A DNA stretch of 64,000 bases. Source: Roseofilum reptotaenium CS-1145. Its GTDB lineage: Bacteria; Cyanobacteriota; Cyanobacteriia; Cyanobacteriales; Desertifilaceae. The stretch spans positions 57,003 to 121,002 of the forward strand of contig NZ_JAQMUE010000098.1 of the NCBI RefSeq assembly GCF_028330985.1, read 5' to 3'. A model generated the notes under the pieces. The model ran no database searches and was not told the DNA's origin. It saw only the letters and a list, made by a program, of their open reading frames with translations. Position 1 is the stretch's first letter, and every line of letters begins with the position of its first letter. Shown here one piece after another: positions 38,817-40,143 of the stretch. Made by a program: the position numbers and the translations under genes.

Positions 38817-39944
38817 ATGTCAGATGATGTGGCAGCAATAGTCATTGACAATGGCTCAGGAATGGTCAAAGCTGGCTTTGCTGGAGACAATGCCCCAAGA
38901 GCCATCTTTCCCAGTATTGTGGGGAGACCTCGCCATCAAGGAGTGAACATAGGAACGGGGCAACCAGACTCTTATATTGGGGACGAAGCCCAGAGCAAAC
39001 GAGGAATTCTGACCCTCAAAAATCCCATCGAACATGGAATTGTTACCAACTGGGATGATATGGAGAAGATATGGCATCATACCTTCTATAACGAACTGAA
39101 AATCGATCCCTCCCAACACCCGGTTTTACTCACTGAAGCCCCATTAAATCCCAAGGCAAACCGCGAGAAAATGACGCAAATTATGTTCGAGACATTTAAA
39201 GTCCCGGCCATGTATGTTGCCATTCAAGCCGTTCTCTCACTCTACGCCAGCGGGCGCACCACTGGAATTGTTTTAGACTCTGGCGATGGAGTCAGTCATA
39301 CAGTTCCAATTTATGAAGGATATGCCCTCCCTCATGCCATTATTCGCCTCGATTTAGCCGGCCGAGATTTAACCGACTATCTAGTGAAAATCTTGGCCGA
39401 GCGGGGATATAGTTTAAACACGACCGCAGAACGGGAAATTGTCCGCGATATTAAAGAAAAATTATGCTATGTTGCTCTCGATTTCGAGCAGGAGATGCAA
39501 ACAGCAGCCAGTAGCCGTTCTTTAGAAAAATCTTATGAGCTACCGGATGGTCAAGTCATCACCCTGGGCAACGAGCGATTCCGGTGTCCGGAAACCTTGT
39601 TCCAACCTGCCTTTATTGGCATGGAATCAGCGGGAATTCACGAAACCACATACAATTCGATTATGAAATGCGATGTGGATATTCGTAAAGATCTGTATGC
39701 CAACACGGTTCTGAGTGGGGGAACAACAATGTTCCCAGGAATTGCCGATCGGATGCAGAAAGAAATTTCGGCTCTGGCTCCTCCCACCATGAAGATTAAG
39801 ATTATTGCACCTCCGGAACGCAAATATAGTGTTTGGATTGGTGGCTCTATTCTGGCTTCTTTGTCTACCTTCCAACAGATGTGGATTAGCCGGCAAGAAT
39901 ACGAGGAAAGCGGCCCATCAATTGTCCATCGTAAGTGTTTCTAA
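38817..39944 (+). CDS. Eukaryotic-type actin
   Basis: 375 residues from [15 protein letters not shown] (ATG 38817; an in-frame ATG at 38802 would add five residues); collinear with animal beta-actin without gaps. By eye against remembered human beta-actin there are about 40 differences (~89% identity), far above bacterial MreB/ParM. Intact: phosphate loops DNGSG (11-15) and LDSGDGVSH (153-161), Gln137, His73, GGTTM, and the C-terminus SIVHRKCF with Cys374. Altered: Cys17 to Val, Asp25 to Asn, D-loop Asn44/Ile45/Thr47/Pro50, Tyr69 to Asn. [12 protein letters not shown] and [12 protein letters not shown] look animal-like. No introns. Only a weak GGA lies ahead of the start. It lies inside a Nit1C cluster, opposite strand, and is followed by beta-thymosin. 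Presumably an ATPase; polymerisation is unproven. Confidence 0.98.
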
Positions 39945-40005
39945 AGCTGGTGGCATTGTTCACTTCTTTATCGTTCCTATCATTTTAACCAGGAGGTCTA
40001 TTCCT

Positions 40006-40143
40006 ATGACAGATAAACCCGATATCTCGGAAGTGGCTAAGTTTGATAAATCGAAACTGAAGAACACTGAAACTCAAGAAAAAAATACGCTTCCGACTAA
40101 AGAACAGATCGAGCAAGAAAAAGCTGAAGCCAAACCGGAATAG
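40006..40143 (+). CDS. Beta-thymosin (actin-monomer-binding peptide)
   Basis: 45 residues, ATG 40006, with a perfect AGGAGG at 39991-39996 (9-nt spacing). It aligns end to end with animal thymosin beta-4: TDKPD start, the helix/actin motif [15 protein letters not shown] (classical LKKTET reads LKNTET), LPTKE and IEQEK. About 29 of 43 positions are identical to remembered human beta-4. Beta-thymosins bind G-actin 1:1 across barbed and pointed faces and sequester it. It starts 61 bp after actin on the same strand, so the pair forms an operon. The frame is open upstream into actin, which can hide the short gene from automatic callers. Its KNTLPTKE segment resembles invertebrate forms. Confidence 0.95.

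Follow-up and report, generated by a model that had tools for sequence, protein, structure and literature searches.

We analysed a 64,000-nucleotide stretch of the cyanobacterium Roseofilum reptotaenium CS-1145 (contig NZ_JAQMUE010000098.1, positions 57,003 to 121,002 of the forward strand; hereafter the window), in which a gene for a eukaryotic-type actin is followed directly by a gene for a beta-thymosin. The features of this gene pair are as follows.

38817..39944, forward strand: actin gene, 375 amino acids, ATP-site residues intact, no internal stop
39991..39997, forward strand: AGGAGGT Shine-Dalgarno site of the thymosin gene, duplex energy -11.5 kcal/mol
40006..40143, forward strand: beta-thymosin gene, 45 amino acids, no internal stop

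The thymosin gene lies downstream of the actin gene on the same strand, separated from it by 61 bp, and an in-frame ATG at 38802, 15 nt upstream of 38817, offers a second possible actin start. The original prediction, made from the sequence alone, had described an intact 375-residue actin and a full-length thymosin, adjacent and intronless, and both the open reading frames (ORFs) and the Pfam searches agreed with it. Actin scored 498 bits against Pfam Actin (cut-off 27) over residues 3-375, and thymosin scored 75.7 bits against Pfam Thymosin (PF01290, cut-off 24.8) as a single domain over residues 3-40 of 45. The closest solved structure to the actin was cytoplasmic beta-actin, with a gapless alignment over residues 1-375. 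Among the matches listed, complete animal-type actins of 375-378 residues were 89-92% identical to it (for example Lytechinus, 91%, and Babylonia, 89%). The thymosin protein search gave 34 matches, one of which was the window's own cluster of 8 contigs. The other 33 were 74-88% identical to the window thymosin and all named ones came from animals, among them goby (85%), abalone (83%) and sea cucumber (83%). The nucleotide-binding motifs had also been predicted to be intact, and all 21 of 21 nucleotide-site residues equalled the eukaryotic consensus, on an assumed residue list. beta-Thymosins bind actin through the motif LKKTET, which reads LKNTET in the window (one of six residues altered) and is retained in a genome from another family of the same order (G089). 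The D-loop of the window actin is full-length with 4 of 12 residues altered (M44N, V45I, M47T and K50P). Met44 and Met47, given as MICAL targets in PMC7247010, are both absent from it.

Contamination or misassembly of animal DNA would account for an actin this close to the complete animal-type actins listed. We consider it very unlikely, with a chance close to nil, because the same junction occurs in a second assembly, the pair lies in a single-contig genome, the codons are host-like and the changes between species are mostly synonymous. For the window's own genome (G000), completeness is 98.95% and contamination 0.05%. The same junction recurs in another species of the genus (G076), within a 6.7-kb segment that is 97% identical, and in G089 (99% complete) the pair sits at 2.09 Mb of a single 5.13-Mb contig. 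The window actin and its close variants (P0094-P0097, P0099, P0100) were listed on as many as 21 contig records, the longest of 201 kb, and a contig may be represented more than once among them. Both genes are intronless and have ribosome sites, and in codon usage actin outscored 17 and thymosin 14 of 39 window genes. Between the window and G076, the actin gene differed by 14 nucleotide changes, 11 of them synonymous (dN/dS 0.0035/0.0447), and the thymosin gene by 4, 3 of them synonymous (0.0092/0.1253). Absence from independent isolates had been named beforehand as a sign of contamination or misassembly, and the pair was present in G076, in G089 and in two further genomes, L002 and L007.

L002 is an Alteromonadaceae metagenome-assembled genome (MAG) and L007 is Ca. 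Thiobius zoothamnicola, two lineages of Pseudomonadota. The original placement of the pair in a cyanobacterium was thus right but too narrow: the same order, actin then thymosin, occurs in five bacterial genomes of four lineages, each thymosin with a ribosome site, and the gap measures 61 bp in the window, G076 and G089, 71 bp in L002 and 68 bp in L007. Of 16 actin-bearing genomes tested, 5 carried a thymosin; a survey of the window's order found one in 3 of 388 genomes, each already counted in the 5. None of 14 controls matched in either search, and all of these thymosins sit directly behind the actin. A search with the Thiobius thymosin returned one cluster, 98% identical and on a 72-kb contig, and reached no further bacterial thymosin. 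At a threshold of E 1e-20 or better, actin matches came from 12 of the 388 genomes in the window's order (to which Microcoleus, Spirulina and Microcystis belong), 3/210 in the Thiobius order and 1/293 in the L002 order. When the L015 actin served as query, they came from 4/317 in the class to which the genome of L014, a MAG titled Polyangia, belongs.

The genome collection held 18 actin loci, four of which (L010, L011, L012 and L017) were judged from their residues and small contigs to be probable eukaryotic contigs and were kept out of the trees. Two of these, L010 and L011, are the two actins of the Verrucomicrobiaceae MAG H1_MAG_00039; they have interrupted frames on small contigs and are probably eukaryotic DNA in the MAG, perhaps with introns. 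Profilin was found in 4 of 20 genomes, next to actin in Microcystis (~0.3 kb) and Planktothrix (~0.5 kb) and non-adjacent in L014's Polyangia MAG and in the MAG of L015. None of the 15 genomes tested for both thymosin and profilin had the two together.

In a tree of 29 rows, the bacterial actins separated into two groups, Microcystis-type and window-type, each arising from animal-like actins, with weak deep supports (76/69 for the 11 window-type rows). Its 13 eukaryotic rows were taken from 120 proteins listed (of 7,986 scored) and include four unnamed entries taken for eukaryotic (P0115, P0120, P0134 and P0146), of which P0134 fell beside the window-type group. Six long or partial rows had been dropped; with them included (35 rows), resolution of the groups was poorer, and L016 (Sessilibacter) is window-type only on that larger, weakly supported tree. 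A single clade of all bacterial rows was not rejected (p-AU 0.201), and a single clade of the five thymosin-linked rows was rejected (p-AU 0.013). The pair was likely acquired from an animal, with no particular donor emerging from the comparisons, and has likely moved between bacteria since. Most simply, an actin-thymosin pair would be ancestral to the window-type group and would have passed between phyla, with thymosin later lost in some lines; repeated capture is an alternative. Behind thymosin-less actins, no thymosin remnant was seen by eye in 520 bp (G089 was left out of this inspection) and none scored above chance by tblastn. The other group has probably crossed phyla as well, since an actin from the Thiobius order (G545:C86:960-2069) groups with Microcystis ActM (99/95).

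We read the pair as a likely operon from its spacing. The Shine-Dalgarno duplex energies in the window were -11.5 kcal/mol for thymosin and -3.3 kcal/mol for actin. Compared with 46 window ORFs of at least 120 aa, the thymosin site was among the strongest: none reached -11.5 from its mechanical start, where the best value was -10.2, and 2 of 46 equalled or passed it when given the best nearby start. L002 pointed in the same direction (thymosin -9.5, actin -7.2). Because the thymosin ribosome site is far stronger than that of actin, thymosin is predicted to be made in molar excess, with a stock of actin monomer. Spontaneous actin assembly in eukaryotic cells is inhibited by several proteins, beta-thymosin being one of them (PMC11853071), and thymosin beta-4 fused to actin blocks its polymerisation in Pichia (PMC5976186). 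We therefore favour, with a probability of about 0.6, a likely animal-derived and likely operonic pair in which thymosin is predicted to bind the barbed face of actin and hold it as monomer. Most actin would be sequestered without assembling spontaneously, and any assembly would follow falling thymosin or rising actin. In keeping with this, profilin gave no match in G000, and in 11 genomes no match exceeded the cut-off of the thermosome model TIGR02339, which stands for CCT by homology only; 4 of 14 controls lay above it.

Several observations count against this reading. Co-transcription is read from the spacing, and a promoter scan gave 4 matches where shuffled sequences averaged 3.6, no more than chance. 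The duplex energies used an assumed anti-Shine-Dalgarno tail and mechanical ORF starts, and in Thiobius the sites are reversed (thymosin -5.8, actin -9.5), so that the argument for excess fails there. The motif itself varies, reading LKNTET in the window, LKKIET in L002 and LQKAQT in Thiobius. Thymosin appears dispensable in the group, because G093, Thiosymbion and Aureispira keep an actin without a thymosin match. The changes behind the dN/dS values are few (14 for actin and 4 for thymosin). Finally, the G089 actin copy may be damaged, because its frame overlaps at the start with a DDE transposase gene and lacks the usual first residues.

To ask which parts of the actin are kept, we used beta-actin numbering and 283 sites near-invariant in the 13 eukaryotic rows, with subdomain limits and pointed- and barbed-face contact residues from PMC7247010 and an assumed profilin-site list. 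Pointed-face sites were kept at 12/16 in the window, 8/16 in G093, 15/16 in G089, 9/16 in L002, 6/16 in L003 (Thiosymbion), 5/16 in L007, 8/16 in L008, 3/16 in L016 and 1/16 in each of L013, L014 and L015. The window's 12/16 compares with 96% of near-invariant sites elsewhere in the protein (p 0.008; a looser test on all sites gave p 0.11). On the barbed face, the window actin kept all 20 contact-partner sites and all 17 residues of the assumed profilin site. The literature-based barbed set was complete (20/20) in three rows, kept at 14-19/20 in seven and at 9/20 in L016; taken alone it is less striking, and L015 was the one row in which it significantly exceeded the remainder of the protein. 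Profilin-site residues were kept at 17/17 in 8 of 11 rows, 16/17 in L007, 15/17 in L003 and 7/17 in L016. Barbed-face conservation exceeded pointed-face conservation in all 11 window-type rows (Wilcoxon p 0.001; the rows are related and not independent). Most relatives have lost D-loop residues and several have lost ATP-site residues (down to 5/19 in Aureispira and 8/19 in L014), while most keep the barbed face; Sessilibacter is the exception, with both faces diverged. The Microcystis-type group lacks the asymmetry, G545 and Spirulina having lost barbed-face sites. L013, L014 and L015, from the MAG titled Polyangia and two related bins, lack most of subdomain 2 and keep the profilin site in full on the assumed list, and the Planktothrix form lacks subdomain 4 as well as most of subdomain 2.

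If the pair instead served a dynamic intracellular actin cytoskeleton, with thymosin only buffering free monomer as in animal cells, then an ATP site at 21/21 and a full-length D-loop are what one would expect, and Microcystis ActM, which is only 65% identical to eukaryotic actin, forms filaments (PMC3254629). The D-loop changes at 44, 45, 47 and 50 and the loss at near-invariant pointed-face sites speak against it, as does the profilin search of the 20 genomes, which gave no match in G000 (nucleators and cofilin were not searched for), and we regard it as rather unlikely. The working, regulated module of the original prediction stands as an actin with its own monomer-binding factor, fixed in the bacterium, and is less certain as a working filament cytoskeleton. 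Because most relatives have lost D-loop residues, and several ATP-site residues, yet mostly keep the barbed face, a monomer- or partner-binding module fits at least as well as filaments. The group's pointed face is wearing away and its barbed face largely persists, so the actin group may have drifted away from a filament role. We tentatively raise the possibility that several phyla share an animal-derived G-actin module and not a cytoskeleton, with the barbed face frozen, the filament half eroding and a monomer-binding partner encoded. If this is true, erosion would sometimes have gone as far as subdomains 1 and 3 alone, one branch would pair its actin with thymosin and another with profilin, and a 1:1 complex would be the working unit, acting within the cell or directed at neighbouring eukaryotes.

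The same asymmetry bears on a barbed-face module directed at eukaryotic partners, in which the actin would act as a decoy or pointed-end cap towards the actin machinery of animals or protists and thymosin would prevent its self-assembly beforehand. The bias towards the barbed face in 11/11 rows, the complete profilin site in 8 of 11 and the truncated Polyangia-type and Planktothrix actins would fit such a role, and the carriers include surface symbionts of a ciliate (L007) and a nematode (L003). Bacterial profilin, found in 4 of 20 genomes, could explain the same conservation, however, and L016 has lost both faces; we judge this module clearly unlikely. At L007:13225-14167, near the Thiobius actin, lie a ThsB-like gene (~4 kb from the actin) and a PDC-M50A-like gene, and at L003:2239-4169 a PD-T4-4-like/PDC-M47 pair lies ~4 kb from the Thiosymbion actin. 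These neighbours led us to consider a defence role, which was rejected; the window actin itself matched no PADLOC model.

The surroundings of the pair in the window are listed below; the genes were assigned by profile match.

37007..38011, reverse strand: sll0787-family AIR synthase-like gene
38015..38551, reverse strand: MSMEG_0567/Sll0786-family GNAT gene
38552..40359, no strand: GNAT-to-radical-SAM stretch holding the pair, 1,808 bp
40360..41451, reverse strand: MSMEG_0568-family radical-SAM gene
41448..42482, reverse strand: Nit6803-family nitrilase gene
42529..43011, reverse strand: MSMEG_0572/Sll0783-family gene
37018..43740, no strand: 6.7-kb segment of nitrilase-cluster genes and the pair, 97% identical in G076

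The neighbours form a nitrilase cluster on the minus strand (TIGR04049, TIGR04045, TIGR04043, TIGR04048 and TIGR04044), which we take to be of the type called Nit1C. The pair was likely inserted into this cluster, because the GNAT-to-radical-SAM spacing of 1,808 bp in the window corresponds to 89 bp in G089 (ORF ends mechanical), whose own nitrilase cluster lies ~373 kb from its actin pair. Of the 6 congeneric species examined, just 2 had the cluster's radical-SAM gene. In G076, ~15 and ~18 kb flanking the segment match neither the window nor the 20 kb before it, except for one 0.5-kb stretch of 68% identity located elsewhere. The segment genes had dS values of 0.045-0.125 between the window and G076, below the 0.153 of one ileS stretch that served as single yardstick, which suggests that the segment was exchanged between the two species or changed more slowly there.

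Direct repeats of 60 nt, at 36849-36908 and 44047-44106, flank the 6.7-kb segment. Their family is dispersed (at least 40 matches in G000 and at least 24 in G076, from 40/86 and 40/53 candidates scored), and they are weak evidence for specific excision for that reason. In L002 (869-2560), the pair lies between 29-nt inverted repeats (869-897 and 2532-2560) that are 86% complementary, a candidate cassette; an intact Y1-type transposase gene adjoins one end, and pieces of this transposase region recur at the other. Together with the transposase gene in G089, this suggests carriage of the pair by transposons in both genomes. The plasmid and phage collections yielded no carrier by tblastn, and neither of two pattern matches in IMG/VR was confirmed. 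The changed surroundings of the segment in G076 and the transposase genes beside the pair in L002 and G089 are also what a functionless transient passenger on a mobile segment would leave behind. We give that explanation little credence: dN/dS is 0.07-0.08 for both genes, from few changes, and the protein has stayed ~90% animal-like though its codon usage is within the host range.

Eukaryotic actin in bacteria is already known, including actin with profilin (ActM/PfnM, PMC3254629) and syringactin. The original prediction had stated that no bacterial actin with thymosin was known, and in the open-access literature we found no report of a bacterial thymosin, of its pairing with actin or of its presence in several lineages. 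The Thiobius paper (PMC10952691) contained no term for thymosin or cytoskelet-, its single match to 'actin' being a bacterial genus name in the references. The pair adds a second animal-type actin regulator to bacteria, in a pairing that recurs in four lineages, and offers a natural experiment on how an actin so close to that of animals can fold with no CCT chaperonin. It also bears on which parts of actin's extreme conservation stem from partners rather than filaments, a question that becomes approachable because here the partner face mostly persists while the filament face decays.

Among known systems, syringactin (NCBIfam NF040575), presumably a Pseudomonas syringae protein, is likewise a eukaryote-like actin in bacteria, and we know of no thymosin associated with it. 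The window actin (residues 275-374) matches model residues 185-284 at 149.6 bits, but the model has 286 residues and its cut-off of 300 was reached by neither the window actin nor 10 relatives; in 10 of 11 bacterial actins scanned, the best stretch was the last 100 model residues, ~184-284. The actin-like protein of Ca. Uab amorphum, also eukaryote-like, differs in being reported as possibly of Asgard origin (PMC6906331), and the words thymosin and profilin do not appear in the main text of that paper. ActM/PfnM of Microcystis aeruginosa PCC 7806 is similar in that a eukaryotic actin adjoins a eukaryotic monomer-binding protein in a cyanobacterium, and PfnM was called the only known prokaryotic homologue of a eukaryotic actin-binding protein in PMC3254629. 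There the partner is profilin and not thymosin, no profilin match was found in G000, ActM is 65% identical to eukaryotic actin compared with ~90% for the window actin, and the two types fall in different tree groups (deep supports weak). The window thymosin shares with animal beta-thymosins (PF01290) its length, Pfam score, FDKSKLK..TET core and LPTKE..IEQEK tail, and differs from them in its bacterial host, in LKNTET for LKKTET and in adjoining actin. In the engineered actin-thymosin beta-4 fusion (PMC5976186), thymosin is likewise supplied with actin and stops its polymerisation in a foreign cell, there as a single chain in yeast and here as two natural bacterial genes. The pair is a natural counterpart of the fusion used to produce recombinant actin.
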